Assembly (NCBI GenBank): GCA_963922205.1
Contig: CAWUHX010000166.1
Location: 248,001-312,000, forward strand
Source: Romanomermis culicivorax
Lineage: Eukaryota; Nematoda; Enoplea; Mermithida; Mermithidae
DNA: 64,000 bases
Direction of reading: 5' to 3'
In this document: positions 915 to 50,775 of the stretch, piece after piece
Layout: each line of letters opens with the position of its first letter
How positions within the stretch are numbered: position 1 is the stretch's first letter
The notes under the pieces: model-generated
Database searches by the model: none
Told to the model about the DNA's origin: nothing
Seen by the model: the letters and a program-made list of their open reading frames with translations, nothing else
Position numbers and translations under genes: made by a program

Positions 915-3900
915 GTAAATATATAACCTTCTTACATATGAAAGAGCTGTGCAGGTATACCTCGAAAATAGTCATAACTCCAACTTTGTGAAAACTAGAC
1001 TTATCATGCTTCTGCATGGTACCGACGATATTTCCAGCCACAAAGTTTGCTTCATTAAAACATCTAAAATATAACGTCTCTTCAGCTCATAACATTTTAT
1101 CATTGTTTTTTCGAAGCAAATTCCTACGAGAAGTGTTTGGGTTAATGTGGTCTTTCTGGTATAGTTGCTGCTCTTTCGGATTATAAAATTCCTTTGCTGA
1201 TGATAATGTTACGATTGTTGGTTCTAACGTTTTTTAAACGCCCAATAATTTTTATTCGTATTTTTCATTTTAGCCACAGGTATTGACTGAAGTTTTGGAT
1301 TACAGTAACTATTTCTTCACCGGATTATTCGCTTTCGAAATGACCCTAAAATTAGTTGCCGAAGGCTTTTTCGGGTATTTTAGCGACGGCTTTAACGTTT
1401 TTGATGGGGGCATTGTCGTGTTAAGGTTTGCAACGTTTTTTCTTGTTGTTGAGTATTTCCTGTTTTACATAGATTCTTATTGATTTATTCTTCATTGTTT
1501 ATTTTTTAATTTGTAGCGTTGGAGAAATAATTATACTGAACTGGCACGCTATTGCTACAAAAAACACTATGCAGTATATAGATTTTCTTTGTGTTTATGC
1601 GTAATAATCCCAAATAGCTTTGAGATAATGCCTTTTTTAAATTTTATGTCTTGAACAGATTCCAACTTGAATGATATGGTGCTGCTCTGTTTTAATCATC
1701 TAAGATTGTTTAGTAAGCATTGGAAGAATATGCACAATGACATCGAACAATTGTTTCAAAATTACAAGAGCATATTATGTACATGCAATACCTCGATCAG
1801 GTTGGATGGAGTGGGATAACATCCGACCTTATACTGGGAGAGGATCCGATGAGTTAGAATTGTTTTTAAAATCCATTTATCGATGCTTAGATATTTTTCA
1901 GTATTTAAACCATTTTGAGTGAATCCAAAATTTGGGTGGGCGAGTTCATACTATCCTATCTATTACACGTATGGAGCATATGCTATATAAAATTGACTAG
2001 GCAAATTTAGAAGTCAAATTCTATTCGAGCATTTTACTGATATATATACAGGATGAGCCATAAAAAGGCGACCGGTGCTGACTTCGATAACTTTTGAACG
2101 GATGAAGCTCTCTTCTAATGCGGATTGCTGCATTAAAATGCCCTGTTTATCTTTGTTATAGAGACCAAATTTCATGCTCCTAGCGTTTATAGTTACTGTA
2201 CAAACAGAAATTTAGTAAATGTGGTCATTTTTCCAAAAACAAAATTGGTGAAATCAGAGTAAGAGTTGTCCTATTGTGAAAAAAGTTTTCTGAAGCTTTT
2301 TATACACAATAATACTTTAAAAGCCACCCAGCTTTGCAAGTTACACGTAATTTAAAGTCATCGACTTCTTGTTTCAATATGGGGCAAAATTTCGCCATAA
2401 TCAAGAGTTTTTGTTTTGAAATTGGAAAAAAAATCAAAATCAAAATCAAAATAAAATCAATCTGTCATTGACCAGATCGAAAAACGATTGAAATTATTGG
2501 TGAAACAGAAAGTAGGATGCTCTAAAATGGTTCTCTTGTAGTTTCCAGCATTTATATGGTTCTCATGATTGGATCTATTGTACTTTTCTGTTGTAAAACA
2601 TATTGATTTGATTTGTGTGGGTCAGAAGGTTTATCCTCTACTGGCAGCCCACACATACAATGTAGTTGTGGTGGTATCGGTTACACTGGCGGATTAGCAC
2701 AATTTATTCGTAGACAATACAACCCTAAAGAAAGATGGAAAGAAGGCGATGAGAGACGAGTGAATAGTTGGCCAAAGGCCCAAGTAACAAAAACGTGGGC
2801 ATAATTTGCATGCCCAAAAAGTATATGCACGTGCACCAGCATAATGTGCACGTGCAAACACATAACTGTCCCCTTCTTGAAAGGTCTTCAACAGTGCCGA
2901 AATTGTCAGGGAGCATGGCTGTGGGTTGAACGTCTGGAGCCTCATAATTCGGGAATCTGTCCAGGGTTATCATCAGCTGAAATGTTCAATACTATCGGTG
3001 GATAATATTTTCGCATGTGTCGCGCATTCCAGATGTTGCTGTCAGAAAGTTTGAAAATGTAATCACTGATGACGTTGATAACATTGATGACATTGGAGTA
3101 AGCTGACTCCCACTTCTTTATAAGGCTGGCTGGTCATTAGACGTGACTTTGTCACCAATATGGAACAATGGATTTTGATGACCAGGTTCTTGTTGCTTTG
3201 GCTGACGTTTTTCCTCAAAGCAAACGTTTCGTTTCAGCTTTTTGGGTTGTAGCCCAGCAGGTTCACTGATGCTATGACATGGTTCAAATGGTAGACGGGC
3301 ATGTCCATTGAACATTATTTCTGTTGGTGACAATGTTTCGAGATTCAGGTGTTCTGCACCAAATCGAGCCAACAGTTCAGTTATCGCTGCAGCAAAAGGC
3401 GTATTCAAGGTAGCTGTTGCCTGCGCATGGAACTTTAGTGAGCAATTGAACACTTTGACTCTGCCATTTGACTGTGGGTGGTAAACCGGCATTGCATGAT
3501 GCTGTACCTCATGCTTGTAGAGGAATTCGGTGAATGTGTCTGATTGATATTCCGGCCCATTGTCTGAAACAAGAAGGGCAGGATTACCATAGCAGGCAAA
3601 AAGTTCAGCTAGGAATTTGATCGTCCTTTCAGCAGTGTGGTCAGCACACAATCAAACTTGGGGGAAACTGGAGAGATAATTGATGACAACAATCACAAAT
3701 CGATTTTGATATGGTGCTGTTGCAAATGATCCAGTGATGTCAATAACAATTTTTTCCCAGGCAGCTTTCAAAAGCAGCAATGGATCAGTTCGAATCATCA
3801 ATCGTGGATTTGACTTACTGGAGTCTTGACAACCTTGACAATGGCCAATCGTCTCTTCCATGTCAGCAGCAATACCAGGTCACCAAAACAATTCATGTAA

Positions 3901-6900
3901 CTTGATTTTGGCTCTGACAATGCTGGGATGTCCTTTGTGTGCTTTATTCATGAGTTGTCTGTGTAACTTTGATTGCATGACAATTTGATCAGTTTTGAGC
4001 AGTAATCCTTGATCCACTGCTAAATTGTTTCGAACAACATCATACGGGGTCAGGTTGTTATCCTGGTGATGGTTGGCCTTTCAGCCACATTCATTGACCA
4101 ATTTGATTATGAGGCACAAGAGGTCATCCCTGGAGGTATCCATTCAAAATGTCTTGAGTGGGAAGTTTTCAGCAGCAATCAAATTGACTTTTTTAAGCAT
4201 ACATGTAACGAAGCCCCGAAGTCTGGGGGGGGGGGGATTGGGCGACTTTTTTTGGGGGGGGGTCAGTAATTCCCAAAATTTTGGGGCGAGGGGTCTCTCA
4301 AGGAAAAAAATTCGATTTTTTTACAAAAAAAGTCCGAAAAATTGTTCTAAAAATAGTAATTTTCCCTGAAAAGACCGAAAAAATGTATCCATGGCGCGAA
4401 GCACCAAGAAAATTCACATTTTTTACAATTTTTCATTCAAAATTTGACATTTTTAATCAAAAAATTGACATTTTTCAGTATTTTTTTGACCAAAAGCATG
4501 GGGGTCCCTAGGGCTACCATATGGCTAGCCATTGGATTGGAAAATCCTGGGGGGTGGTCGCCCAATGGCTAGCCATATGGTTGAAGATTTCTGGAGGGGG
4601 TCCAATAGCACTTCCCCTCCCCAATTACATGTATGTTTGTAAGTAGTGGTAATGGCAACCAGGATAGAATGTCGGGTATGATGTTGTCCAACCCTGGCTT
4701 GTGTTGAATCTGGTAGTAAAACTCAGCTAGTCAGGCACCCCATCCATCAAATTTGTGGGCTTTGTGTCTACTGTCGGATTGCACCAATATCAAAACTAGG
4801 GCTTGATGATCTGTGATCAGCGTAAACTTTCAGCCTAGCAAAAAGTTAGAAAAATGTTCACAAGCCCAAACACAACTTAGAGCTTTGTGTTCATTCATGG
4901 TGTAAACTTGTTCATGGTTGGTAAGCGTCTTGCTGGTGAACCCAATTGGCACTAATGGTCCTCAAGCTATCTGTGACAAGCAGGCACCGAGACCAATGTT
5001 GGACATGTCAGTGGCTAAAATAGTGTGATGATTGGGATCAAAAATCAGGAGTTGTAAATTGTTGGTCAGCAGTGATATCAATTTGTTCAAGGCCATCGTA
5101 TATTCATCGCTCCATTTAGATTTGGTTTGCTCAGATGTACAGGTCAAATGCTGGAGCGGCTCAGCATGATCCGCAAGATGCAGCAAAAATTCACCCACGT
5201 AGCTGATAGTTCCAAAAAAACTGCAAATGTGGGTGATCCATTGCGGGATTGGCACATTTTGGATCATATCAATGGTTCCTCGGGTCAGTCTTGATGCTGT
5301 CCCTTGATATGGAATGTCCTAAGAATGGAACATCAGTGATGGGGAGTTGACATTTTGTGAAGTTTAGATGAAAATCTTTGTCACTGAGGAATTGCAGCAT
5401 GGCTCGTAGTCATTCATTGTGTTGCATGGCCGTGGAACCAAACACCAATATGTTGTCAAGGTAGCTGATGCACCCTTCACATCCCACAAGCCTTTGTGAG
5501 ACAAGGCACTGGAACATAGAGGCCGTGTCTATCAATCTCATAGGCAAGCATTTGTACTGGAACAAACCATATGGTGTAATTGTCATCGTAAGTAGATGAG
5601 ACTGGAGCACCGATGTGATGTGGAAATACCCCTTCAACAAGTCCAACTTGATGAACGTCGTGGCTCCTTGCAACTGCATATACAAATCATTGATTCGTAG
5701 CAGCAGATGGCGTTCTGGAAAAACAAAATTATTAAGAAGTGAGAAATCCATCGTAAATCGAATTCGGCCATTGGGCTTTGGAACTGTAACGAGGTTGAGG
5801 GCCCATGCACTGAATGTAGTAACTCGTTCCCAAATGTCATCAGTGACCATTTGTTCGACCTCTTTCTCAACTGCAGCATGGCGAGCAAGCAGTACTTGTC
5901 TGACTGGTCGGGCTACAGGAATGGCGTTGTTCGTGAGCATAATGCAATACTCAAACTCTGGAAACTTTTCCATGCCATCAGATGTGTCTCGAGAAGTTGC
6001 GGGCAATATCACTGAGATATCTGTGACTTTCGGCAGGCATACTTTGCACCGGCTGGACTGCAGCAGTTGGTGGCATCAAATCAATGGTTTGGACAAAGTT
6101 GATTTGTCACATGGCTCCATCAATGACCAATTGTAGCACCTTGATTGTATTAGTACCCCAGGTAGCAAGTTTGATCGTATCTAGAACAAGTAGAGTTATC
6201 ATGGCTAAGCGACCATTGTGTTGGATGATTGTTGTAAACTGTCCTCTAAGATTGACAATTTCCATATTATTGAAGCTGAACAATTGAGAGTTTTATTTGC
6301 TGAGCGGCGTGCCAATCCATTTCATGTAACAATGACGCTTCAGCTCCTGAATCAACAATACCACTGGTGAAACAAACTTTTCCATTTGGATGGATAACAT
6401 GAAATGTACATTCGTAGGAGGCAGTGGCACTATGCGTAACCATTCGTAAGTGGATGGTCTTGACGGCTGTTTCCTCATCACTCCATCCATTTGACTTGCC
6501 TTGACATCACTCACAATACTTTACAAAATGTCCCTTACGACCACCACAATCGATGCACTTGCTGTCCTTCCCTTTGCAATTGAGTGATAAATATGTATGA
6601 TGTGTCGAACCACAGCCCCGGCAATGCTTTGACCTCGTAGGTGATTGCCGGTGCTTCGATTGATTCAGCGATTGATCTCAACTACGATTGAGGTATTGGT
6701 CACTGTCGTGACGACTAATATTGGGGATGGCTTGGACACTTTTGGAATCCCCCCCCTAATGGCAGCAGATGAACTTTCAGCACTTTCCGCAGCCTGCATG
6801 ATGTTAATGTAAACATCCAGCATGGCAGCATGTCATGAAAATAATCATTTCTGAGTGTCCTGCGAGTAACAATTTTGAGCAAGCATGTAGACCAGGTTGC

Positions 6901-9900
6901 CATTGGCATTGAAGGAATCTGCTCTTAAAGTTTATAGCTGGCTAAGGAATTCCAATGTTGATTCATCCCTGCATTGTTTGCAAGTTCAAAACTGGTAAGA
7001 TGTGATGGGTTGCAGAATTGGCTGCTCAAAGATCCTGATGATAGCATTGAAAAACTTGCTGTGTGGCATCCTTGGAATCTGATCCATGGCCAGTGAGTGT
7101 TTGAACCATTGGATGGCCTCAGCTCCCAGATGTGGGCACATGATCTGGTTCTTTTTGGCATCCTTGAGTTGCTTGTCGACTGGGCATTGGGCATAGGTCA
7201 AGTCGTACATGTTGTCGAGTTGCTGCTTCCATGTTGATAGCATCGAATTTGGATGGATGGGTGCTCCCACAGTGGTGTAACTGCTAGGATCAGGATGGTG
7301 GCCATTTTGCGTCAAATTCACCAAAAGTTCACAATTTTTCGTAAAATTTCAAAAATTCGCAAATTCGACCTTTTTCAGATGTCGAATGTCAAAATTCAGA
7401 TGCAGTGTCAAATTTTATTCCAGGCAAGTTGGCGTATAGTGTGACGTACTGTTGGGGGTCAATCCTACCTTCGGAGGTATACTGTAGCCATTGGCCTACT
7501 GTAGCATTCCATGAGCGTAATGTAGCATTCCATCGGCCTACTGTAGCATTCGGTCGACAAACTTTCTGTGCCAATTTGTTGTGTGGGTCAGTAGGTTTAT
7601 CCTCTACTGGGCAGCCCGCACATACACTGTAGTTGTAGAGGTATTGGTTACACTGGCCGACTAGCATAATTTATTTGTAGACAATAGGATGGTAAAGAAA
7701 GACGAAAAGAAGGCGATAAGAGACGAATGAATAGTTGGCCAAAGGCCCAACTATTTATACATGAAATAAGACGTGCATATAAATTTACATAGCTGGGCAT
7801 AATTTGCATGCCCAAAAAGTATATGCACGTGCACCAGTATGATGTGCATGTGCAAACTCATCAATTTTGTCAATTTTTCAAAATTTATTTGCAAAAAAAC
7901 CGACGTTTAGTATTTTTGATTCTAGTCAGTCAATATTGGAGTAGTCTGGCTGAAATTTTGCACTTTTTATGCCAGATGTTTTATCTATCGACGATAGAAA
8001 ACGCATTAAAAAGGCTTCAGCCATTTGAAAACTATGAAAGTCAGTACCGGTCGCCTTTTTTCGCACCCTGTATCCGTACTGATAATTCCATAAGTTACTT
8101 TACTAGATATCAGAAAATCTCAACCAAATTCTGATGCAATATGCTCTGTCAAAAAATTTATTTAAAAGTACATCTGTCTCTATTTTTTCCATAAAAAGAT
8201 TCCAGAGTGTAAAATTTTGATAACAGCTTCTTCTCTCCAATTACTTTTTCTTATTCGTAGATCATACATCAGTTGATCGTGAACTTTGTAGAACTTTGCA
8301 GCTTCGTTAAATGTTGCTGCAATTTGACCTTTGTGCTTTTAATATGCTTTCATGTAAATGCATGTATGTCGGTCACCTACTTGTATACGAAGTCAGCACG
8401 GTTACATATCAATTGCACTGTTAACTAGCTACGAACCGCTGCTTAACACATCAATTATCGCATTCGAAGTTGACTAATGCAGCTAGCATACTTGTAACTG
8501 GGATGCGGACTACGGAGATGCTTCTTTTAATCATACTATATCCTGCAGTAACTTGTAGGGGATTCCTCAGTTACTCCTGACAGAAATTGTCTTTAATTTA
8601 AGTTTTTTTAATAGAATTGTCCCAAACCCCTGCACCTGAACGGCTGTTGCGACCTCATGCAACGAGTACTCGAACTCGAATAACGAGTGCGCGAACGGGA
8701 ATAAGAACTACTCTAGCCTTTTTTGACTTATCGAACTCGAAAAAATAGAGAATTGAAAACTTGTAGAAGTCATACACTTTCTGTTTGAGCTTTTGTAGAT
8801 ATTTATTAGCTTTAGTATGCTTGTAAAATCCCCAGATAATTTCAAGACGTCACTTTGCTTCTCGCACCAAAATCATATTTATCGGGATTAAGTCTTAGCT
8901 ATTTTAAACGAGAAAATTATTTGTTATCTCTTTGTATGTATGGATACAAAAACGCCCAAGTCATTATTTTACTGACCAGTTTGCCAACATTCTAGGATGC
9001 TGAATAACCGTTTGCCCACTTATTCGCCTACAAGTAGTTCTTGGAATTGCACAAATATTAACTTCCTATTTTTCGAACTGAATTTTGGAAAGCTAAATAT
9101 ACTTGGGTTAAAAAGTAGAAATTTTTCATCACAAGTGAACAGAGTTTGATTCACTTATCCCATTATTAGTGATCGACCGGGTGACCCGGCCCGAGCCCGG
9201 TGAGAAAATGGCCGGGCTTTCTCTTCGTTTATATGGAAGGATGAATATCACACATCAACAAAATTCTAAGTTTCTTCAGGAGATAATTCCGTAGTAGACC
9301 GTGCAGCCGATCTAAGCCCAAAAAACGGTTTAAAAAATAATAATTTTTGTCTGAAAAACTGTAAAAAATGTATTCATGACGCGAAGCGCCGAGAAAATTT
9401 ATACTTTTCAGTATTTTTCTCACCAAAAGTATGGGGATCCCTATGGCTACCTAAAATTGGCAAATCCTGTGGGGGCTAGCCATATGGCCGACGATCTCTG
9501 GGGGAATCTATAGCACTTCGCCCCACTTGCATGTATATTTTTAACAGTTAATCCCAGAAGTTTAGACAGAGATGAACTCTAATTTTTATTCGTCTATTGA
9601 ATATGAAACATAGGAAAATACTTTTGAATTTGTATGTTAGAAGCTCACCAAAAATACAATTCAGTCCTTAGTATGTCTTGCAATTAATATATTACGATGC
9701 GTAATTACGAACTTATCTGCAATCATTTATCAGGAATTCAACTGGGTTCATGTTTAACGCATGATCTCAATATTTGTTATACACTCCGGACTGATATTCT
9801 AGGGGAATAATTATTAATTTGTCATTACACTTCACTGAAATAAGCAAAAATAGCACGATTATGGTTAGAATAGAGTAAATTCCATGATTTTTAACGCATG

Positions 9901-12900
9901 CTAGAAAACAAAATCAACTTATTTCGTCCTCGCATTTCAGGTGGTCGGGGGGTATTCAAGAGATGAGTATCAAACATAATAACCACTGCAGTAATACCAG
10001 TTTCATATCAGTTTGAAAATAAACGTACAGTCGTCGTAAGCATTGTATTGTGAAAGTGGCGGTACCAGTTGATTTTGTTCTTTGAGATTTTACACAACTT
10101 CCCTTTTTTTAGCACTCAAGTTTTATATGGTGAGTTTATATAATGTTACTGTCATGCGCGAGTAATACCTCGTGTTTTTGCCATTTGAGATATAGTGTAT
10201 GCTTTCATTTTAAACAACTTTTAAAAGTAATATTCAAAATCAATCACTGACTGAGCAACACTGCAGGATCCTTAGGGTGTACTGATATACAACGCTGATT
10301 GGTCTACTTACTCACACTATCTATATTCGAGGCAACCTGAAAGCTCAACAAACAGCACCGGAAAATGTGGAGAACTCGTTCTGATTTATGTCGCATTCAC
10401 AAGTAAGCTGGTGACCAGGTGGTCACTAGCTCCAATAATCGCTCAATACGTAACTAGTTCTGGATAATAATATTTTATTTCGAGTTTTAATGCATTCCTG
10501 ACATTGTTTTTCGCTATTCTTAGGCATAATTATAATCATTATATATCATTAAAATATAGACCCGGGGCCGGTTTCATCAAAGCGACTTAAGCTCCAGCTG
10601 AGCTGCAGCTTAACTCTATATGTTATACCATTGTCTTTAAGCTGCAGCTCAGCTGTAGCTTAGCTCGTACACAATACATGTCGAGAAAGTTAAGCTACAG
10701 CTGAGCTGCACCTTAACGGCAACGCTGTATCATATAGAGTTAAGCTACAGCTTAAGCTGCAGCTTAACTTTCTCGATATGATTTGTGTACGTGTTAAGCT
10801 GCAGCTGAGCTGCACCTAAACTTTTCGTATAAAGAAATGCTTCCATGGCGCATTGCGCGGACTTTACCCGAAAATTTTTCATTCGATTATGGATTTTTTC
10901 AAGCGACTAGAAAAAATTTCGGCTTTTTTGGAACTTCGCCGGTATTGGCAAAGTTCCGGGATGAGCGTTTTAGCACTTCTTTAGTTCGTTCGTTTTGTTT
11001 TGTCCATTTTGACATATAGACATAAATAATAGTTTAACAAACTTCCAAAACTGCCTACGCAAGCTACTGGCAAAGTTCCAACAAAGCAGAATTTTTTCTA
11101 GTCGATAAACCACTACTGAAAAAAATCGATAATCGAACGAAAAATTTTCGGATAAAATCCGGGTAATGCGCCATGGAAACATTTTCTTCACACGAAAAGT
11201 TCCTACACAAAACATATCGGGAAAGTTGAGCTGTAGCTTAAGCTGTAACTTAACTCTATATGTTATGCCATTGCCGTCAAGGTGCAGCTCAGCTGTAGCT
11301 TAACTTTCTCGACATGTTTTGTGTACGCGTTAAGCTGCAGCTGAGCTATAGAGTTAAGCTGCAGCTGAGCTGGAGCTTAAGTCGCTTTGATGAAATCGGC
11401 CTCCGGTGTTTAAGACCCGACGCTTGCCCGGTGTAAAATCTGGGCCCGGTCGGTCACTACTCATTATCCCAGGCCGACACCCCCCCTACCCAACGTGGCG
11501 GGGGTATTACAAGTCTGACCATCCTAGAATAGATACGACTATTTAGGGGCGACTTTGCGCATCCAGCACAGTAGTCAGGCATGTCCGAATTCTGAATCTT
11601 CAGACAAGTTATCGTATCTGATTTCGTGTTGAGCATCAAACGTTACTTTATTTTTCTATGTTAGGCGTGTACGTACGGTGTGGTCTAAACAAATACGACC
11701 CGCTCGAAAAGCATGTTGTACCTCGGCCATTGAAGCTAGAGTTCTGTTGTCCAGGTAGCCTATCAACCCCAGTTTCTACTTTCTTGATTTGAAATTTCAC
11801 TATTGTAGCTACAGTAAACCCTTTATATTCACTAGGAACAAAACATTACTTTTGTATTAATGTTCACTCCATTCCAAAATTAAGTGAACAACAATGTTTG
11901 GCTTGTAAACATTAGATGTATGATAGGAGAATGATTGTATAGAATGCAGAAACCGAAACTTCGGATGTGCTCCGTTTACTGTAATTTATAGTCTGTTTTT
12001 TATAAAATGCTTCCAAATGGAAAACTGACACAAAGCAGTACCGTCGTCAAAATCGTTTACATAGAGCTCTTACTGCAAAATTTTTCACTAGAAAAATTGT
12101 TAAACATTAGGTCAGTATGTTCACAAATTTCCAGTCCTACATGCTATATCGTTTATCGGAAAATCGCAAAAATCTGAAATACTACTTGCTTTCCACTTTC
12201 ATTATTTGTAAACATTTCAAGAAGAACAGACTATAGATCTTTTAAGCGGTCTATTTTTTGAACTAAATTGTTTTTAGAATAAAGGTGGACCGGAATTTGC
12301 ATAAAGTGGCGAAAAGACTTACTCGGGTGGTTTTTTGTTAAAATTTCAGAACTCCCGAATCATTGTCAATTGGCATGAACCTACTGCCCACATCACGTTG
12401 TGTACGCATCTTGTTTCCCTCGTCCTATTCTCGTGGCATGTCATATAGTTGCCATGATTATAAATTGTTCTAATGATAGTCGTTTTTAGTTTGTGGGAAA
12501 TAGCCGAAGGAGGCGGCGGAAGCTTATCAGTTTTGAGAACATTTCGCCTCCTGCGAATATTAAAGCTAGTCCGTTTTATGCCTGCCTTACGATATCAGTT
12601 GGTCGTTATGCTCAGGACAATGGACAATGTTACTGTATTTTTCGGTTTACTGTGCCTATTCATATTCATATTCAGGTATTGTCATTGATTTGTTTTTTAT
12701 CAGAACATAATTCGAGGGTTCTGTGGTTCAGCGTTTTAGCCACTGTGTCAATTCAGCCACCTGTCTTGATTCAGTGGGCCCGTGTCGATCGTTCCACCGA
12801 ATTTTAAGTACATGTATCGATTGTTGCCCAATGTAATAATAGAGTGTCACATAAAAATGTCATGCACACAAGTTTTTAATGATCGATAAATGCACGGCAA

Positions 12901-15900
12901 AAATTTTTCAGTTGGGGAGTCCTTTAACTTTTCTTGAGCGGATCATTGAGCAAAAACAAAAGGAAAGCTCCATAAGCATTATTATATATAGTATTTGGAA
13001 AGTTACCAGAAAAATATTCCTCAAAGCAGTCCAGGTGAGCGCATCTGACGGTTGTTTCAGGCCAGATGAGCATACCTGGACAATAGGTTCAACTGGATTC
13101 AACTCGGTACCAGATGAGGCGACTTCGGTACCAGATGACTCAATTCTCAGCGCCAGGTGTGGAAACCAATTTTAATTGCAAAAGCGAGATGGAGGACTTG
13201 GAGATAGACCATCATACATGTAATTGGGGGTGAAATGCTGTGGGAACCCCCCCTCCCAGAAATCGTCAACCATATGGCTAGTCATTGGGCGACCGCTCCT
13301 CCCCTCAGGATTTTCCAATCCTATGGCTATCCATATGATAACCGTTGGGACTCCCATACTTTGGTCGAAAAAATACTGAAAATGTCATTTTTTGAACAAA
13401 AAGTGGTCAAAAATGTGAATTTTATTGGCGCTTCGCGCCATGAATACATTTCTTCGGTCTTTTTAGAAAAAATATTATTTTTTGAACGATTTTTCGGACT
13501 TTTTTCTTGAAAAAATCGAATTTTTTTTACTCGAGACCCTTCCCTCCAAAACTTTGGGAATTACCGACCCCCGGCCCAAAAAAAGTCACCCAACTCCCCC
13601 CCCCAGACCTCTGGGCCCCGTTACATGTATGTAGACTATCAGCTACTAAAAATTAGATAATCAACGAAATAGAAAATCAACCAGCCAACTTATCATGGAA
13701 CAATGTATCAATGAAATAAACAAAACCCGTAAATCGACCAGCGAAAGAATCAAAGAAACAACCAACTAACCGATGAATTAACCAACCAACCATTCACCAG
13801 GAAATCAACCAACCACCAACCATTAACCAAAGAATCAACCAGCCAACCATTAACTGGGTAATCAAACAATCAATGAACCGACCATTGAATCAGAGAATCA
13901 ACCAGCCAAACAGGGAATCGGCGAATCAACCGACAAATAAGGGAATCAATGAATGAGCCATCCAGGAAATCAACCGGCCAATCAGAGAATCGGCCAACTA
14001 ATCAAGAAATCAACTAATGATTCAATTCATTCAGGGAATAAACTAATCGAGGAATCAATGAATGTGTTGCGTAGAAAAATTTTTAGAGACCCTCTAAAAC
14101 GCACCAGAGTGTACTTTTTCAAATTCTCTGACTTTTCGTGGTTCCAGGCATAATTTTTACCTCTGACCTGACAGTTTTTTCAGGCTTGCTTGATACACTG
14201 GCACGTCCTAAAAAGTATGTAGATTCTGAAATAAGTTTGAAAAACATCTTTGATTGCATTCTGTCTATCTTGTACAGGATAAATGAAGTATACATTTGGT
14301 TCCCTATCCCTACCTCTGTTTGGCTTGATAACCACCCAACAACCAACCAAATTTTTGGACTGGCTGGTACCAGATGAACCGATAGGACTTTGCCAGGTAT
14401 GCAGGTGAGGGTTTCCGGAGTCTGAGCTACAGGGGTTGACCCCCGCCCATTACGTGTGTCTATGTTTAACAGTAGTGATTCTCTGCGAATTAGATATTAA
14501 CTGATCAGTTTTACTATCCGAATAGTTCGATTATTTAAACTTTGAAAATATAGTGCGAAATTTCGCATTGATTTTTGAATCAGCACGGGAGGAGGTATGG
14601 ATGTGCGGTTTCGTTTTTTAGTCACGGAATTCAATTCCCCAAGGCGTTGCCATTTACTGTCCTTGTGATTCTTGAAGTTCGGATGGTATTTAGGGCAGTG
14701 AGATATCTATTGTGAAATTCAAAGCATGATAGCAATTAACTCCTATCTATCGCAATTGGATCAACAGGAACATGGTTCTTAGCAGGTACAAGTGATCATT
14801 CCCAAATTACTACACAGGTATACGGGCCTGAGACAATTTCAGCTCAAAATTCTTTAGAAAAGTTAAAAACAAGAAATGATATTCGTTTTTTCAGAATCTG
14901 ATAAATTCGTCAAATTGATAATTAATCTAACTTATGATAAAAACAGTTGAGTTACAGACAATCCCATACTGATGTTTACATCTCAACTTGGACAATAGAT
15001 TTTCCGTGCATATAAACTAGCGAGCTTCTTGCTTCAAAATTTCAGATTTAAAGTTCTGAGTCTTCCTATTTTAATCAATTAAGCTAATTATTACACAATA
15101 ATCGTTGTTTCGAAAAAGTAACACGGTAGGAAAATTGATGCACAATCGTATATTCGAATACCTAATCAGCATGCAAATTTTAAAAGTCCCTTCAGAATGC
15201 AATTCGAATGACGTATAGGCCTTGTTTCAAAATAATTTCCTCATTTCTTCCATCTGAGCTTGTTTAATTTCCGATCATCGTAATTCACGATGTTTAGTGT
15301 AGTCAAGTCTGTAGCCAGGAATTTTTTCATAGAGGCGCCACACATTTTTTTCACTTAATTTGCCGTATGAGTGGCATTTCTGACTTGACTTTTTCTTGAA
15401 GAAAAAACCAAAGGTCACACGACCTCTGCTTTTTTTAACACTTGCAACATTTCGGGAGACCATGGCCCCCCCAACCCCCCTGCGTACAGTCCCTCAGGTT
15501 ACTTATATACATATTTATATATCTATATTTGATGGACTGACTAAATGGACTCAGTAGCTGATTTAACACGGTGAACTTTATGTGAAAAACGGTGGCTGAA
15601 TAGACACAATATCGTCCAAAGAAGAGTCTGAGAATGTATTAATAGGCTTAGATAGTCATGCCTTATTAAATAGAATTATCGTTTCTGAGCACGCTTTTCG
15701 AGCATTGTTGACACTTTTGTCTCAAGTCATACACTTGCTTTAATGATTGTCTGACTGAGTGCCAGCCGTACGCTTTTTTTGTGTTCATGTTTGTTTTACA
15801 GGGTTGAGCATAACCTTTTCCTAGGGGGTCACAGCGAGAACGGCAGTAGTTTACAACTTTCATAAAACCTCCTTTTAATCGAAAAGGTATTTGAATGAGC

Positions 15901-18900
15901 TATTATATGTCAAAATTGCTCAAAATGAGTGGAAAATTCGATTCGGGAAAGCAATCGGTCATTGACAGAGTAAAATTCATCGCCCGTTGGAGCAACATTT
16001 ATTGATCAAAAATGGATTGCAAACATATTGAATCGGCATCAGACACGCACGGCAAGAATTTTCCAGGTAGAGGGTTCTCGGACTTTTTATCGAGAGGGTG
16101 GGGGTGGCCGCGAGAAAAGAAAAAAAAAGTTCCGCAAGCATGTTTTTCATACAGAATATGCATCAAAATCATCAAGAAAACTGTATTGGAAAAAGTTCAG
16201 GGGGGGTGTTTGACGATTTTTTCCAGTCCAGGGACTAATATAGAAGAGTTTAACGATTTTTTCCAGGCCAGGCAGACGATTTTTTCTAGTCCAGGATCTC
16301 ATATAGTAGAGTTTACCCCCTCCCATGTGCACGTATGATCAGCATCCCAATTGGGTTACTGATCATTGGAAGATATATCGATTATTAGCGCAGTTGTTAC
16401 AAGTGTTACTGTGAGCCCTGGAAAAAGGTTATGAACCACTCTGTACTTCAATTTGATGCTTGGAGTTGTGTCATGAAAAGAGAATCAAAAATATGCCTCG
16501 TCTGCTAAAATTAAATTAAATCGCATAATTTTGTGCACATATCTTTGATTGGCTATTAATTATGCATGTTACAACTATTGATGGTTCGACGTCGACGTTT
16601 TCGCCGTTACACTAGAAACTTTTTAAAATCGATGTGTTTCGAAAAATGAGAGATTGAAAAACTGAACTGCTATGACATAGAGAGAAATGTAAGCAGCGAG
16701 AAAATTTGCATGTGATAAGCATACATCGGCAGCGAGAAAAATCTGGGGCAGGTCAACCAAATTTTAATCCAACTTTAACCAACCGTAACTCCCTCGAAAA
16801 GAGCATACATCATCGTTAAGTGAATATTATCTTTTTTGTAATCAAGATGCACTTGATTACTTTTTTGTAACCGAGGTGCAACTTGATTTCTCGTGCGTTA
16901 AATCTTGAAATCGTGTGTGCGATTTTAAATTGATTTTTTCGTCGCAATTTTGAGTATTGTGATACACAACTTGATTTATCGTGTGCAATTTTCAATGAGT
17001 CAGGAAGAACTTTCAACATGTTTTTCAGGTTATCGAACTCGTTTTTCAAGTTGTGACAAAAAAATCGAACCTTCTCGTATTCCGTAGTTTATTTTACTTT
17101 TTTCAATAAGCCATTTGGAATATATTTTGGATTTTCAAATCAGATTTTCATTGTCCAAATTTTATATGCGTTGTTGCCATACCCGTGCATGATCAGTCAG
17201 CCTGAGGGGGTGGACTGGGATTTGTCAGGGTAGTAAATGGTTTTGACTAAGCACACCCAAGCAGAGAAAGCTTAAATGGCGAAATCCTTTAGTAGTAACT
17301 AGGCTCCCGTCAAAAATGTACTACTAAAGTGGCTTCCCAGACGGTAAATCAAAAAATAATGGATAGTAAATGAGCATGCGACAGGCCTGGTAGGGTAATA
17401 CCGCTACCGTACCCCAACCAATGCACAGGTATTGTTGGTGGATATTTGTTTTGTTCTGGATCATTATGACTGTGTTTAGTGAACAATATTTATTTAATAT
17501 TTGTTTTTTTTGCCTTCACGCTACAAATTTGTTGTAGCATACTTGGCATGAATCTGTTCGGCTGTAAATTTTGCAAAGAGAAAGATAATTTCGACGGTAC
17601 AAAAAAGAAGGATTGCGAAAGGAAAAACTTCGACACTTTGCTTTGGGCCTTACTAACGGTGTTTCAGGTATATATAATATCTAGTAGAGTTTTGAATGAA
17701 TGCTCGTTTTATGAATAATTAAACAGTCAAGGTTGACCTTTACGTGTTCGAGAAATTAGCTTGCTTTTGCATGGTTTATGTATGTTTTCTCTGCTTGCAT
17801 TGTCACCTTACCTAGCGGAGGCCCTGCTCTCTCCTTAGGTTAGTTTTTTGCCATTTGTTTACTGTTTTTGCATCTCCTCTGTTATAATCTTAGCTTATTG
17901 GGAATGGTGATTTTTGGCGGTCGATTTTGCATCAATAAAAGCGACGGCTCCCAATGCACTTGCAAAGATCTGCGTGATCCCAAAATTACATGCATATGCG
18001 CCAGAAAAAATTTCGACAATTTTTTACATTCGAGCTTAACGGTTTTTCAAGTAAGTGATCGGAATTAAAGATTGAGAATAGCAAATTTCCCCTGCTTCAT
18101 GCTAGTTTTAGATTTGCTGGGCCTATTTGTGATGATTTTTTCGATTTCAGATGTCTGTGCTTGGAACAGAAATCGTGAGCTGTCCGATATTCCTTTTGGG
18201 TTGAAGTTAGGTATCGCTTACGAGAACAACAAAAGTTAATAATTTCTCAGTAAATCAAATCTAGTTCATGAATTCAAAATTTCAGATTTTGCTTCATTTT
18301 TTCAGATCATTTTTGAATATTTTTCCACCAAATAAAAAAACATGAAATTGCATCGCATGCTCAAATTATATTTACGTCAGTCTGAAATGATTTTTTACTC
18401 CATCCTATGCACAGGCGTATACATAATATATTTTACTAATCCACGTTCCGCTGCTCATTTCGCAGTGCATGCTTTACTTTGCCTCCTAGCCCCAAGGTCA
18501 ACCTTATTCGAATTAGTTTTTTCCTCCGATATTTCATTCGCCATTTCTCATTTCTTGCCTATGTTGTTCATTTCTAGCTCGCGAAATTCAGAATACAAAT
18601 TAGATTTTGGATGAAACAAATCCACTCACTGCAATAATCTGTTTGGTTTATTTTTCTGCTACACATATGAGCAGTCATCAGTCATATTCATTTGTCGTGG
18701 ATCATTTCGATTTTAGATCCTTACGCAAGAAGATTGGAATGTTGTCCTATTCAATGGAATGGCACACACATCACCTTGGGCAGCTCTTTACTTCGTAGCA
18801 CTCATGACATTTGGAAATTATGTCCTCTTCAACTTACTTGTCGCAATTTTGGTTGAGGGCTTTCAAGAAAGCAAAGAAGTTAGTATTAAATAATTTATTC

Positions 18901-21900
18901 GCTATCGAATAGCTCCCAAAATTTTAGCTTTTGTACTTTGCAATTCGTGGTGTTAGTTAAAATTATATTTGCGTCATTTTTTTGATGTTCCCTTCATTCT
19001 TCAATGACTCTAGAAGTGATACTCTTATCCATAGGAAAAAGGTTGTCAATGTCACTAGGTAAGCATTTCCGTTGCACTATATTTTTATTCATTTCAATTT
19101 ATTCTATGGGTTCATGATAGTGCGATACATTTTTAGCCAAAAAGTGAACTACTTCAAGCTGTCTTATATGTCTCTGCCCATTTTAGCTTCTTTAGCTTCC
19201 ATAAATGATCAGGCAATAAGACGCCGATGAAAATTAGATAACATGATGGTTATATTTTTTCGACAGCATTTTGACTCATGAAACTTTTTCAGACCCTAAA
19301 TTTCTGTTATTCACGGTTCTTTATTCAGGAAGAAAGACGTTTACTGGAAGAAGAAGAGAAGAAAAAAGCTGAAGAAGTTGAAGAAAACAGAAAAAAAGAG
19401 GAAGAATATATGCTTTATAAGACCCCAAGTCAAAATGCTATCATCTATCCGCTTATCGAGGGTGACGATTCAGGCGAGCCTATATGCACTTGCTCTTATA
19501 GATCAGCAGCTGACAGAGGTATATTTGTTTTTTTCGGTAAGAAGAAATTTTCCTCAGACTATGTCGTTTGATTTTGAATATGAATATTGATAATCTTTGG
19601 TCAATTTTTGACCGCAATAAATTTAGATCGCTCCAAAGATATTAAGCATAAGAATAGTAAGTTCATAAAAGAAATTCTTTTTGTTCTGAAAGACACCATT
19701 ATGCTGTGTCTTGGGAGTTAAATTTGGCTGCTACTCACTCATTTGGACAAAAAATAAACGCTTTTGCATCAATCATTAAAAAAATCTCAATAATTTTGGA
19801 CTGCTAAAATTGTCACAAACTTTTAGATCGACTGCTTTCACTGCCCGCTGTGCTTTATTCATCACCCTTGCAACTGCAACAACCATTACTCGTTCACCCG
19901 GTTGGCGGCAGCGGTGTTGATAACGACGACAAAGGGGCAAACCGCAGTGACGCGTTCATGCAAGTGCCGCCGCATATCATACAAACAGCACCCACGCCGC
20001 AACATTCTCCCCATTGTTTGGCAAGAACATTGGATAATGGCTTGACTTTTGCTCATTGCACAGATGATCACAGCTCATCACCCGCCGGCGAGTCTCATTT
20101 AGATGGTCTAGAGTCAAATTCTTCGGTAAGTATTACGGATAAAACGGTAATTTCGATTTTCTTGGAAACAAGATGCTGAAGTTTAATTTTTCGATATTGA
20201 ATTTCGCGTCGAGTAACACAGGTGAGTATAGATGACAATATTGATCATTAAAAGAGAACTGATCATTAATATTATTTGCGCTTTTTGTGAACTTAATAAT
20301 ATCGGACTACGTTATGAGAAAACTTACAGTCATATACAGGATAGTCCAAAAAATGGCCCAAAAAGTATGTCGTGCCTTAGCCAGTCGCACTAAGATGTTC
20401 GTGTTTTTCCAATTCTAGTCCATAAAATTTCAAATCCGTATCTACAGTATATCGAGCTGTATTCATTTACATTAACCCTCTGCTTTTGGTGTTGAATTTT
20501 TCATCTTTTTTCGAGTCAAATAATCGAAAGTTATTTTGCAGTTGCCGAGTTAACTGCATACATGTGACGGAGCCTTGAGCTCTGGGGCCGCCAAGCGACT
20601 TTTTGACGCGGACAGTCATTGGTTGCCCAAAATGTTAAGGGGTCTCTGAAGTAAGGTTTTTCTGCACAGTGCAGACTTTTTTGGACTATGCGAAAAAATT
20701 TTGGGTTTTTCCAGCACAGAACTAAAATTTTTGTACGTTTCTACTACTGGCGTTTGTCGTATGCCAAAAGGCATGTGGCCGGCGCGTCAGAAAAATGATG
20801 ATCGGTGAGGAGCTCGTACGCCCAACCTTCTGCACATAGGGCAGACGTGGTACCAACTGTGCTAACCGAGCCACCTGGATGATTCGCAAATTGTGGTGGT
20901 AGTGGTGAGTGCGGGGCACGTCGCGTAATAAACAGCCGGACGCACCACTACAACAAATTGATGAAAATGTCCATTATGGTGCGATTGAGAAGATCCAGAT
21001 TTTCAGATAACCGGATAGGAAAAAATATCCACTAAGTAACACTAAATACTAAGGAGCACTAAATAGATTCGTTAAACAGGCGATAATGAAATCAGACCAA
21101 ACTAATTTGGACATAAATGCGAAGTGATCAAGTAAAAAAGTTCATAGCTAATGATAAACATGTTATGCTTTTATTGACGAACTTGTTTGTTCAGGTCTTA
21201 TTTTTTGGTTTATCCTCTCATGTAATTGACATTTTCTGCTTCTTTTTAGGTTATTCTGGTATCTGATTTCTGCAATAACATTACCATTTCTGAGGTGAAA
21301 TTAATTACACAAAGAATTTGTATTTGTAAATTTTTTTTCAATGTCCATCTTTGAGGACTCTTCAGAATTTACCCAATTTCCTGTTGTAGTGGTGCGTCTA
21401 GCTTTATTTCCAAAGTCCTTTGTTCTTAAAGTAGGTTCACTTCACGTTAGGTAAACAAATCTTTCACAATGGTTTGTGCTATACTATTTTTGGTATCAAA
21501 AAACAAATGGATGAAGAAGTTTTGCATAACATTTGTAAAATTTTTAGATTTGTGCGCCATTTTCCTTTTCTCGTGGGCGGTGACGATTAGTCACTTGTGT
21601 TGTATACGTGTGGTGCACTCCACCGACGACGGTTTCTTTCTTAACGTTCACTTATTATCTAGAAGTTCAGTTTTTGATGGGCATTCTTTGGTGTCCGTCA
21701 GTGTGTGACCCCTTTCTGGTATAGTCTTTGCCATTTATTTTTGGTAGGGTGTTTTGGAACCACGTGGCCCGGTACCGGGTTGTCGGTTACTCATTTGTGC
21801 CGACCTTGGTGTATTTTCCCATTGTGAATTTTGGGTTCTAACTTATGTTTCTTGTTTTGTTCAATAATAATTTCAATTGTTCCACATTTGGTCAGTTTAC

Positions 21901-24900
21901 CCACTGCTTCTGTAACTTTATCTCGCCCAGTTAGCATTAGGGGAAGGATCACGTTAGGAGTCTCCCAAGAACGGAAGGAGGGTTGCCCAGGGTATACAAG
22001 CCACATATTACCACAGAGGGTTTGAGTTCCTCATTGAGCATTATTTTTCTGACGCGCCAGCTATGTGGATTTGGGCATACGACATTGATGACCGTACCAG
22101 AGGCCCTCCCTCCTCAAAGGGGAGGGGTGTTGTAGTGGTGCATCTGGCTATTCATTACGCGGCATGTCCCGCACTCACCACCACCACTAAACCCACAATT
22201 TTGGAACTATCCACGTGGCTCAGTTAGCGCAGTTGAATAGCGCGTCTGCCTTGTATGCAGAAGGTCGAGAGTTCGAGCCCCTCATCGAGCGTTATTTTTC
22301 TGACGCGCCGGTTACGTGAATATGGGCATACGACATTCCAAACGAAAAACAGTCTGCTGTGTAGGTAATAAATTTCCAGCACATTCAGTTCAAAATGTAA
22401 ATAAATTCTTATTATGTTAGTTCTTATACATATTATTAGATTGCACTTAAAATTTTCGATAAAAACTCGGATTAACAAATGGGTCGTTTGCCAATCACAG
22501 AATACAAATTTCCTCTATAATTTACTCTATTTACTTTATCAGATTTTTGTAAACTTCCTGCGATTATATTCTTTTCCCTTTTTAATCAATTTTTTCATCG
22601 ACCTACCCGGCACATAATTTACTTTGAAATTTATAAATTAATTTTTCTACCATTGCATGGACGCCAAAGTAAAATAAAAGGCACTAAGTTACGACAGGCG
22701 CTTTTGTTGTGATACAATCGACTGGACATACTAAACACAGGCATAATTTTTTTCCTATTTACACCTGTCGAAAAAAGGATTTGAGATTTTTCTACAAATG
22801 CGGAAAAAAAATTCGGCCGTCAAGAACAAAAAGGTGTCTCTTAGTGCGTCTTAGAAATTAAAATCTGTGAATTTCACAGCGCTTCACGGTGGTGTTAGAC
22901 ATAATTTGAATTTGGCTCAAGAGCGGCTTTCACGAAGTCAAGTACAGTTTTTCAATCACTAACACAATCACAATGAATAATGTTAACCAACAATTAATAT
23001 TCGACATTGAGTGCAAAACTTGTAAAATCTATCATCATCGTCATCATCAGTGATGATATCAAGAAACATTTTAGAAGCTTAGTTCTAATAAGATTTAAAA
23101 TCAGTGAACAAGTCGATTTGGTCACATTTTTATGACTTGATATCCGGATATCCGAACTCTCTAAAAACCCGGATATGCGAGGAACATCACTAATATTCAC
23201 TGAACATTATGCTAGAGCACAGACAAAAAGAAGTTTAGATTTATTTCTTAGTTATCCTTAATTGTTTCCATGAATCCGCTATGTCACTACTAGAGCGAGT
23301 AAAACTCGACCATTTCTCTCTGAAAATATTGTGAGAATTGAAATTTTCGTGATGAATATGAATTTTTTAATTTTTCTCACATTTCTTCATACGTTTGTTA
23401 AATACAATCATTTTTCTAGTGAAAATCTAAACCGAGAGTATTACAAATTATTTCCAGAACACATGTTCCAACATTTCGGAGGCTCTTTTGTTCAAAAATT
23501 CTTCGGTGCTACGCACCGGAAAAGTTGAACATGTATGGTTTTCATGATTTATGGTTCCTCATCTCATTTATCAATCGGTAGTCTTCAGTATTCAACCCAT
23601 ATTCACTGACAAATACATTGCAATCGAGTTTCTTTCGCTTATTTTCTTATTGTATTTCTGATTCTGATTTCCGCAATTTTCTCTCTGAAGAGTCATTCAT
23701 GCCTAACCAATCAAAGTCGTCCGATCAATGGAACAGTATCACAAATGAATTCACCGAAAAGTCGTCACCCCGAGTTACCTACGGGTCAACAAGGGTCTCT
23801 CTTAGTTTCCAGTCGATTAACAACCTTAATGCCGACGCCAGTTTTGCGCCATGTTCAGGGTTCGGCCTGCAGTTCTCCATGTTCGAGGTATAGTCCTCAA
23901 TCTTCCTTATGTTCTTGCAAGATTGTTATTTTGAATCGCCTATAATAAAATTCTTCATTTAAAATCAAAAATGCCGCATTTCTACACTTTTTGAAAAAAT
24001 GTGACCAATTGTTTTAAAATGTATGGCTTTACAACATGTCTTCATTATTGCTCCAAAGAAAGAAATGTACTTAGTATTAAAATGACAAGTGTCACGTCGA
24101 GATTTGCGGTTTATTCAATTAATGGTTAGTAGCATAATAAAAAGCGATTCGGTAAATGAAATTAAAAACTTTACTGGCACAAAAAAATAAGTTATCGTAC
24201 TTTGTGCCCAAGTTTAAGACGGGCTCATTATATTAATCATTAGGATGGTAAAGTTTTAGCTAGCTCTTTATCACCTATACCATCAAAGTGAACTTTTCAC
24301 CATTTCCTGTCTTAAAATATTTGACTCAAACGTTGAAAAAATCGTTCAAAAAAGTCGTACTTTTGGTTTAAAAGTCCATAAAAAAATTTGTATCTATGCG
24401 TCGATGCGACAAAAAAATTGACATTTTTGATCATTTTTGCTAAAAGACTATAATTTTCTACCGAAAAAATTGACATTTTTCAGCGTTTAAGAATCAAAAT
24501 TATAAAATATAGCATCCTTTCACCTCCTCCCACTTGCATGCATGCTTCAGTGATGCCCAGCGTATCACAGAGCAGTGCTATCTAAATTATTCTCGAACCA
24601 CTTGCTCAAATCACTTCCTCGCTTGCATGTGTCATTATACTCCCGAAAGTATACCTCTCATTATATCCCTCAATGTTTACGCTGATACTGTCGCACAGAA
24701 CATCATTGCACGAACGCCGTTTGGCCAGACGTCATGGTTCTTTGACACCTATGCGATTCCACACATCATGCTATTATCCACACCTATCGTACAACATATC
24801 ACCGAACCCAAATTTGCTGACTGTCGCAGTTCCATTGCAATTCCCTAGCATCACTTCGCTTTCAAGAACTTCCATTTCCGGACCACTTTCGGAATATAAC

Positions 24901-36900: not shown

Positions 36901-39900
36901 GTTAAGCTACAGCTTAAGCTGCAGCTCAGCTGGAGCTCAAGTATCTTTGATGAAACCAGCCCCACGTCTGGAAAATAATCGAAGCCGATGTCAATGCACA
37001 CAATCCTATTGTCCATAGCCCAAGAAAAATTCGAATTCGAAAAATCGGAATTCTCAGTTGTACAACGTTAAATACAGGCCGAAACCAAATATTTCTTGTT
37101 GAAATGTTGAAAAATTCGATCTCGATGGCGATTATTTAGTCGATAACGCAAAAAATTCATTGTGACAAGTATAAAAACAACAAATTTCTCAGACTTGAAC
37201 CTACTACCGATGACGATTAACGTATGTGTACAACTGAAACCGACCTCACGATCAGAATTAGACTAGAAAATTTATTGCAACCGCACTGCTTGAGCTCTGG
37301 TTTAAGTCCGAGCTCGAGATAATTGCGACGTCGGGATCATCCCCAGGTTATTGCAACCGCCGATCACGATCCCGGAATAATTTTGCTGGAGATAATCGCG
37401 AACTCGGACTTAAACTCGAATATTGCAACTGGCCCCAGGTTTTTTGCTTCTTTGCTATTATTAATTTTGCTATATTGTTATCACTATCTGACCCAAAACT
37501 CAAAAATTTTGTTCGTTTTTTACTTAGTGACTGCACAAGCATGTAATGAGGTCAAAAAATATAATTAGGCATGTGTGTGCGTTTTTTTGTTAGTAATTAT
37601 TCCATGCATATTTTGTGACCCAGAAATTTCGTGTTTTTCCGAAATCGGGGTTTTTCGAGGTTTTACGTACGGAGAGGTTAGCAACACTGGGTAGTATAGC
37701 TCTGGCATCACCTATGAAGCTCTTCAATCCATCCGAATTTTTTTGTGAGGAAGACTATACGATTTTTGATAAATTTTAAAACAAACTGTTTTCGCCGGAA
37801 AATCGGTCAATTTGTTCATCATTATGGCTGCAGAATGTTCATTTTTAGAGTGTTCCGTCGAACACCCCTGCGATGGATTAGGTGAACATGCTCATTTCAA
37901 AGACTTTGGCATGGCGTTTTTAACGTTATTTAGAATAGCTACTGGCGATAATTGGAACGGTATAATGAAAGTAAGATTTTTTAGCATCGTTGACTATAAA
38001 GTTTATCACGGTAACTGAACAGAGTTCACTCACGTCTGAAATCCTATGACATAATTGAAAAGAGTGTTCATTTCACATACAGTCTATTTTTCAAGGATGC
38101 TTTACGCGAAGACTGCGATTCTAAAGATCATTGTCAAAGAAATTGTTGCGTATCGCCAATTATCGCCCCGATTTATTTCGTTATTTTCGTGCTGATGGCG
38201 CAAGTAAAAATTTGTAGAATCAGTTTCAGTGTGAATTTAAATTATGATTTTCCTTGCCCATAGTTCGTTCTTGTCAATGTCGTCGTAGCCGTTTTGATGA
38301 AACATTTGGAGGAAAGCAACAAGAAAATGGCTGACACCGGTAGTGAAGCCGGTGCCACGACTCCCGGCGGCACTGACACAGAAGGAAATTATCGAACTGA
38401 TGATACGGAAGAAGCGGGCGGTAGAGAAGACGAGGTTAGTAGATGCTTCTCCGTCCGTTATAATTTCGCCTTATATCGTATATGAGATTACGAATTTTTC
38501 AAATCTGATGACTGAGCTTTTTGAATTTAGCAGTTTCTAATAATAAGAACTTAAATCTGCGAAGAAAAAATATTTAGTATGTCATCCTGATCAACAATAG
38601 GTAGGAATGGCACCAATATCCGGATCCGATCAACATATCTTACCTATTTTCTAGTGATGGGCCGGGTATCTGTATCCGGATCCGCGGATATTCGCCTAAA
38701 CTTATGGATGCGGGTCCGCTGAACCAAATTTTTTGGATCCGGATTCGCTGTCTTCAAAAAAGTGGATCTGGTCCATGCCTACTATTTTCCGGATCGATGA
38801 AACCTATTTTCTGGTTCCGGATCCGATGACACAATTTTTTAGATCCAAATCCAATGCGGTTAAAAAACTGTATTCGCCCCATCTCTAAAAATTGGTATAT
38901 AAGAATCGTACGTGTCACAGAGCCCCGAGGTCTGGGGGGTAAAGCAGCTTTTTGTGGGCGAAGTCATCGATCGTCCAAAATTTTACGGGATGTCATTGAA
39001 GAGAAAAATATTTGTTTTTCCACCTAATAGGTCAGAAAAATGGTTCAAAAAATATTAATATTTTATCTAAAAACCACAAAAATATGTATTTATGGCGCGC
39101 AGCGCCGAAAAATTTCACATTTTCCGCCGTTTTTTGTTCAAAATTGACCATTTTCTATTAAAAAGTTGACATTTTTCAATTTTTCCCAACAAAAGGACAA
39201 AAAGGCGGGGTTATTATGGCTAGCTTATTTCAATCATATGACCGAAAAATCTTGGGGCTTCACAACATGGCTAGCCATATGGTCGACGAATTCTGGGGGT
39301 TTTTGTGGCGCTTCCCTCAGTTACATACACGATTCTAATATTCAAAATCCAGAATCTCTTGTTGGAAGTCACTCTCTTGAAATTTTAAACTCAAGTCTAC
39401 TAGAATTTTTTGACCGTCTTAAAAAGTGCTTATGAAAAATTATATTTGGTGAGGACAAACAATTCAAGAATTTGAAATTTTTCAATTTCAGAAACCGCGT
39501 TCAAAGCTCAAGAATTTCTTTATAATATATCAAGTTAAATTTAGGACTTAATCATGTTAAACTTCAGGTGTCCGTGTTCGAAGACAGAGAGAAAATTGTC
39601 GAAACGATCGAAAATACTCGGAAAACAGACAAGGACAATGCAGAAATCAAAGAACAAAATCGAAGCAATGCTCAAACAAACGATTTGTACAAATTTCAAC
39701 GACATGCGCTTTTAAGGCATACGGTCGAAGCCCCAAAGGGAACTGTACCACCGAGATTACCACCCCCGTCGGTTCGCGTCAAGTTAAGTCTTCCGGAACT
39801 GAGTCATACAACATCGCAAAACGAACGGGATTTAATCGACTTCGGTTCCAGTACTCCTGCTCATATCAAGGTATGGAAATTTCCAAGAATTTTGGAAAAA

Positions 39901-50584: not shown

Positions 50585-50775
50585 TGTGTTGTATGCCCAA
50601 ATCCACATGGTTGGCGCTTCAGAAAAATAATGCTCGGTGAGGGGCTCAAACCCTCTACCTTCTGCATACAAGGAAGATGCACCACCAACTGCACTAACAA
50701 ACCGGGTGACGTGATTGGTTCAGAAATTGTAGTTGTAGTGATAATGTTGAGTGCTGGGCATGCCACGTGTTGAAA
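50585..50775 (-). repeat. tRNA-related SINE-like copy
   Basis: On the minus strand it carries GGCATGCCCAGCACTCAAC, a tRNA-like part ending with TGTATGCAGAAGGTAGAGGG, TTTGAGCCCCTCACCGAGC and the tail TATTTTTCTGAAGCGCC. It has the same plan as 22128, with more changes. Confidence 0.72.

Follow-up and report, generated by a model that had tools for sequence, protein, structure and literature searches.

Introduction

Among cases in which splicing exchanges the ion that a channel passes, the alternative exons 12a and 12b of Cav3 (T-type) channel genes have been studied best. In the stretch of nematode DNA analysed here (64,000 nucleotides, hereafter the window), two neighbouring exons encode the same structural piece of a Cav3 channel. 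Hence, the question arises whether choosing between them would exchange sodium for calcium permeation, as in the snail Lymnaea, or whether the pair serves another function.

The Cav3 gene and its duplicated exon

The later part of a Cav3 gene lies on the forward strand, with domain II starting at about 258, domain III at about 29300 and domain IV extending from about 32830 to 38371, exon ends being placed by homology and GT-AG sites. Domain I is located outside the window, and the gene is recognised as Cav3 by the sequence of domains II to IV with the filters TQEDW, SKDGW and TGDNW. When compared with PDB chains, the first exon of the pair (exon A) retrieved Cav3 alpha-1G, 1I and 1H (E 3.7e-10 to 2.9e-08). 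The assignment to domain II of a T-type channel made in an earlier note on this DNA is right. The second exon (exon B) gave no Cav3 match among PDB chains up to E 10, just weak Cav1 and unrelated chains. In a large protein database, a search restricted to the words of exon B itself yielded 12 candidates and one match, Cav3 of Trichuris suis (E 2.8e-15, 55% identity), which is the closest 12b by sequence among the matches found.

Exons A and B (Table 1) are GT-AG exons of 130 and 157 nt that both encode the IIS5-turret-P1 piece, and both lengths are 1 mod 3. Exon A is bordered by GTTGTAG/CATACT on the acceptor side and TTTCAG/GTATAT on the donor side, exon B by ATCTTAG/CTTATT and TTTCAA/GTAAGT, respectively; GTAAGT is the donor consensus. 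Counting T in the 17 bases upstream of the acceptors gave six for 12a, the lowest value, and 7 to 11 for the other eight listed, which is too small a sample to weigh. With A alone, and likewise with B alone, the frame into the exon at 18717 is open. Joining A to B, in contrast, results in 14 out-of-frame residues from B followed by TAA as the 15th codon, and skipping of both exons leads to a stop as well. Exactly one exon of the pair thus keeps the frame open, as expected of a mutually exclusive pair.

Three turret cysteines are encoded by A (codons at 17563, 17572 and 17614) and five by B (17928, 17955, 17961, 17991 and 17997), and after a shared Ser codon the exons contribute 43 and 52 aa, respectively, a difference of 9 residues. 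Lengths, phases, the 226-nt spacing, the 3 versus 5 cysteines, the 9-residue difference, the TAA upon serial splicing and the resulting forced choice had all been put forward in the earlier note and were reproduced here. Using A as tblastn query over the 64-kb window, B was found along its full length (E 2.6e-07, 42% identity), and the domain III pore loop followed as next-best match (E 0.038). A third copy of the exon was not detected in the window.

Table 1 Features of the Cav3 gene and of mobile-element-like sequences in the window (a slash marks an exon border)
Feature	Position	Strand	Remark
Upstream constitutive exon ('exon 11' in snail numbering) with the end of IIS3, S4, S4-S5 and the larger part of IIS5	12490..12675	+	donor CAG/GTATTG, leaves phase AG/
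Exon 12a homologue (A), tri-Cys turret (CxxC...C), 130 nt	17538..17667	+	
Lys codon AAA at sodium/calcium switch site (RKNF), 12a	17623..17625	+	site as in PMC9694082
Intron between 12a and 12b, 226 nt	17668..17893	+	one TGCATG at 17768-17773
Exon 12b homologue (B), penta-Cys turret (C...CxC...CxC), 157 nt	17894..18050	+	
Lys codon AAA at switch site (ARKNF), 12b	18006..18008	+	
His codon in P1 helix of 12b	18027..18029	+	12a has Trp (17644-17646)
Downstream constitutive exon with the filter of domain II (TQEDW) and IIS6	18717..18878	+	
Asp codon after domain II filter Glu ('beacon' aspartate)	18732..18734	+	
Domain IV L6 loop exon, four Cys, non-vertebrate two-disulfide kind	38096..38203	+	
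Integrase core	3118-3651	-	Pfam rve, E 3.1e-08
Reverse transcriptase	5410-6075	-	E 9.5e-06, below Pfam's cut-off
Reverse transcriptase of LINE-like element	60986-61426	-	Pfam E 4.1e-18
Endonuclease of LINE-like element	62168-62545	-	Pfam E 1.2e-10

Assignment to the 12a/12b exons of protostomes

Protostome 12a exons are described as encoding 38-46 aa with a CxxC...C pattern, and 12b exons as encoding 48-55 aa with the penta-Cys pattern C...CxC...CxC (PMC7382465). Exon A (43 aa plus the shared Ser, CKFC...C, and RKNF with Lys at the switch site) falls into the former kind and exon B (52 aa plus the shared Ser, five Cys in C...CxC...CxC) into the latter. Since Cys patterns and lengths match those published (PMC7382465, PMC4436565), the pair is a member of a known, widespread kind; judged by sequence, it is the 12a/12b pair of protostome Cav3 genes and not a new system, and the homology to the snail exons suggested earlier holds. 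With LCav3 of Lymnaea (PMC9694082, PMC7382465), it shares the place at IIS5-turret-P1, the Cys patterns, the longer 12b, the mutual exclusivity and the Lys in 12a. The two differ in 12b, as the snail exon has Ala and the window exon Lys at the switch site, with Trp and His, respectively, in P1. The window gene also encodes the other published requirement for high sodium permeation, an L6 loop of domain IV with four Cys, which experiments on the snail channel and on chimeras have linked to such permeation (PMC9694082).

The switch residue

In the snail, the sodium/calcium difference between the isoforms was mapped to a single site (PMC9694082), at which 12a has Lys and 12b has Ala. The sodium effect in LCav3 amounted to 2.32-fold for wild-type 12b and 13.49-fold after exchange of Ala for Lys, compared to 15.62 to about 15.7 for wild-type 12a and 2.24 after exchange of Lys for Ala; the exchange is reported to explain the difference both ways without significant remainder (PMC9694082). 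The Lys was proposed to neutralise the 'beacon' aspartate of domain II (PMC9694082, PMC10120453). Published switch residues are K819/M826 in C. elegans and K1067/A1078 in the snail (PMC9694082). Their residue-number gaps of 7 and 11 equal the gaps in turret length between 12a and 12b (26 in the Caenorhabditis 12a of P0079 and 33 in the C. elegans 12b of P0013; 22 and 33 in the Lymnaea segments of P0050), and this agreement fixes the position of the site.

At this position, both window exons carry Lys. The rule 'Lys in 12a, neutral in 12b' for molluscs and nematodes hence does not hold in the window, and the statement that all nematode 12b exons are neutral here (PMC9694082) is contradicted by the translated 12b exons of the window gene (Lys) and of Trichinella and Trichuris (Arg). 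Aligned with 12a/12b of other invertebrates, as the earlier note had proposed, the Cys framework is canonical, while the Lys in both exons leaves the snail-like effect on sodium versus calcium permeability, which that note had suggested for the exon choice, without support. The pair probably does not swap the two ions in the manner of the snail.

Three observations limit what the Lys of 12b may be taken to do. First, it stands in the context C-A-R-K-N-F, with Ala before Arg where most 12b rows have an acidic residue, and since this acid is absent the Lys side chain may point elsewhere. Second, Lys in RKNF is also present in PDB chains for Cav3.1, 3.2 and 3.3, which we take to be human. Human Cav3.1 and Cav3.2 were calcium-selective in the same study as the snail mutants, and vertebrate channels are devoid of the extra turret and L6 disulfides. 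As both human channels have Lys yet prefer calcium, the residue would act only in a suitable context. Third, insect 12b rows among the matches listed have Lys in 15/15 cases, yet for the honeybee, whose turret lies outside this set, the T-type channel has been characterised as an ordinary calcium channel, the ratio of Na to Ba current being 0.46 (PMC5286435). As native insect data on a Lys-bearing 12b, the honeybee work offered no matching measurement, and a cockroach low-voltage current was dropped as insect evidence, being TTX-sensitive and untied to Cav3.

Survey of 12a and 12b segments

Database segments were compared in a sample of 133 proteins (P0003-P0135), comprising the best 120 of 5456 matches plus 13 further proteins and leaning to close relatives. 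A 12b-type segment was read in 74 rows, which were grouped by hand from listing names; the 59 other proteins gave no such segment by the same reading and were left uncounted. The 12b rows are not independent, with several per species and with partial, chimeric or fused models among them (e.g. P0003, P0043, P0054, P0056, P0064). In this sample, the switch site is neutral in 43/74 rows, namely in those listed from Chromadoria (17/17), Mollusca (17/17), Decapoda (5/5), Chelicerata plus Pycnogonida (2/9), Owenia and Macrostomum. It is basic in the other 31/74, with Arg in Trichinella/Trichuris (6/6), Lys in Chelicerata plus Pycnogonida (7/9) and Hexapoda (15/15), and Lys in single rows from Pollicipes (P0003), Capitella and P0034. 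Counting the rows listed from arthropods, annelids, the flatworm and P0034 together, 25/34 are basic. A discussion of the basic residue in 12b of arthropods, Trichinella or Trichuris was not found in the passages of the literature consulted; supplementary alignments may show such residues.

Matches to the 12a pattern numbered 52, of which 46 have Lys together with the P1 Trp (45 from the database and the window's own), the other six being FGCKFC-type 12b segments (P0011, P0013, P0019, P0021, P0028) and the chimeric model P0043. The Gly-for-Cys change FGCKF/FGGRF to which the earlier note had drawn attention is correct as sequence, but it is no peculiarity of the window gene. In the 12b rows listed from molluscs and arthropods, Gly is the usual residue at this place, and two Panagrolaimus rows have it too; Trichinella and Trichuris have FAG.

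Both segments occur within one protein in 19/133 gene models (P0003, P0006, P0007, P0010, P0012, P0014, P0018, P0019, P0020, P0024, P0031, P0038, P0047, P0049, P0050, P0054, P0056, P0064, P0071). As several of them carry intron-like sequence or cut segments between the two, these fused models are probably prediction errors, and they are a trap when Cav3 channels are modelled from databases.

Pore helix and tether cysteine

The P1 Trp is absent in 23/74 of the 12b rows (Chromadoria 16/17, Trichinellida 6/6, and Owenia) and present in 51. Hence, its loss from 12b is, among the rows listed, mainly a nematode trait. A word search found no occurrence of tryptophan in the main text of PMC9694082 and PMC7382465.

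For nematodes, a voltage-sensor tether Cys outside the intraturret pairs has been described in both exons (PMC10120453), and the FGC cysteine of 12a is modelled as a tether to voltage sensor I. The window 12b does not follow this rule, as FGGRFC offers no Cys ahead of the first turret pair, with the pairing taken from the models in those papers. Compared with Caenorhabditis cca-1 (12a taken from C. remanei P0079, 12b from C. elegans P0013), the window gene is likewise a nematode Cav3 with a much similar 12a (FGCKFCK...) and a 12b devoid of the P1 Trp. The C. elegans 12b, in contrast, has Met at the switch site, the presumed tether Cys in FGC and the pattern CxxC...C...CxC, where the window 12b has Lys, FGG and C...CxC...CxC. 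Closer to it are the 12b segments of Trichinella and Trichuris (P0007, P0008, P0009, P0035, P0012, P0031), which share the basic switch residue, the missing FGC Cys, the pattern C...CxC...CxC, the absent P1 Trp and the lack of an acid before Arg; they differ in having Arg and FAG instead of Lys and FGG, at 55% identity.

Place of the gene within Nematoda

In a tree of 31 Cav3 proteins (879 columns, exon 12 columns excluded), the window gene was placed inside Nematoda with a support of 100/100 (0.998 in a quicker first tree). In the 31-protein tree, the 11 Chromadoria rows (100/100) and the two Trichinellida rows (100/99) each form a branch without the window gene, which stands beside Chromadoria at only 87/73; joining it to Trichinellida was not rejected (AU p 0.336). 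As sampled, the gene is thus placed as a nematode one outside both groups. Mapping basic versus neutral residues at the 12b switch site onto the tree for 25 rows requires at least five changes, so gain is not distinguishable from loss.

Other features of the window

Five TGCATG motifs, presumably FOX-1/RBFOX sites, lie on the forward strand around and between the two exons (16563, 16707, 17186, 17768 and 18466) and were first spotted by eye. This compares with 0.95 expected in 16563-18466 (nominal P 0.003), and no other 2179-nt stretch of the window holds as many; a cluster of five that tight anywhere in the window has P 0.26, so the motifs are a lead only.

Retrotransposon-like open reading frames occupy 3118-7348 on the reverse strand inside the 11-kb domain II intron, and a LINE-like element is found at 60190-62545, also on the reverse strand, whose open reading frame 60190-60942 has no Pfam match. 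A dispersed repeat of about 440 nt is present in Cav3 introns in both orientations (4198-4635, 13213-13631 and 31743-32182, 79-88% alike). Another repeat of about 200 nt, likewise in both orientations, occurs at 20755-20955, 22128-22335 and 50587-50774 (76-79% alike). It contains tRNA-Thr calls at 22218-22291 (+) and 50631-50702 (-), only the former being seen by Rfam, and resembles a SINE derived from tRNA-Thr more than genuine tRNA genes.

Interpretation and alternatives

The reading that we favour, at a probability of roughly 60%, is that of a protostome 12a/12b pair in which the frame enforces the choice between two Lys-bearing, sodium-passing turrets, and in which this choice would mainly change gating and kinetics and not the sodium/calcium preference. 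Splicing factors would select the exon by tissue, and products of double inclusion or double skipping would be removed via their early stops. As inferred from the snail mutants, Lys in either turret would neutralise the aspartate of the domain II filter. Much sodium may then pass through either isoform, because each combines Lys with the additional turret Cys and the four-Cys L6 loop. What would differ between them is the place of the turret disulfide tether to voltage sensor I, and Trp to His in the P1 helix may alter pore-helix packing, both with consequences for gating and kinetics. Kinetic differences between 12a and 12b have been reported for the snail.

A snail-like division of labour, in which 12a is sodium-permeable and 12b calcium-selective, would have to operate here by turret length, disulfides or the P1 Trp-to-His change instead of the Lys. 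Canonical Cys framework and lengths suit such a division, removal of turret Cys alters sodium permeation in the snail (PMC9694082), and in human Cav3.1 and Cav3.2 the Lys is not enough to confer sodium permeability. Nevertheless, we consider it rather unlikely, as a single Lys/Ala exchange sufficed in the snail (PMC9694082) and the window exons both have Lys. Much less probable is that 12b is a decaying or unused copy, with functional channel made from 12a only. In its favour, 12b has lost the P1 Trp, which occurs in each of the 46 counted 12a segments of the Lys type, as well as the acidic residue preceding Arg, and some species are reported to possess just a single exon of the pair (PMC4436565); on the other hand, the open frame, both splice sites including the GTAAGT donor and all five Cys are intact. 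The Trp is missing from 16/17 Chromadoria and 6/6 Trichinellida 12b rows as well, which makes its loss a nematode trait and not decay, and a degenerate 12b was hence rejected as main reading. Least probable is that the exons are not strictly exclusive and that both-in or both-out transcripts serve to reduce the amount of channel, for although both products have early stops and a 60-nt intron elsewhere in the gene (inferred from protein homology) indicates that short introns are spliced, the pair is described as mutually exclusive (PMC7382465) and the 19/133 proteins with both segments look like prediction errors. Because of that 60-nt intron, the 226-nt spacing does not itself stop double inclusion, and steric exclusion by short spacing was not favoured.

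Implications for Cav3 channels of nematodes and other protostomes

The favoured reading, a choice between two Lys-bearing turrets, can be extended tentatively to the history of the pair, with the odds somewhat against the extension. In the ancestral pair of ecdysozoans, perhaps of protostomes, both turrets may have contained Lys, with gating and not ion choice as the function of the pair. The ion switch would then have arisen repeatedly where 12b lost its basic residue, in molluscs, Chromadoria nematodes, decapods and spiders, whereas deep nematodes and most of the sampled arthropods would retain the older state. If so, the animal of the window would be the natural counterpart of the snail mutant in which Ala of 12b was exchanged for Lys. 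Should many animals indeed have a basic residue in both exons, the ion swap would not be the general purpose of the pair. As the nematode rule fails in the window worm, Trichinella and Trichuris, the role of the Lys can be tested in natural channels. C. elegans is reported to be devoid of sodium-channel genes (PMC9694082), and if a basic residue in both exons is widespread, nematode physiology as deduced from C. elegans would not carry over to early-branching worms.
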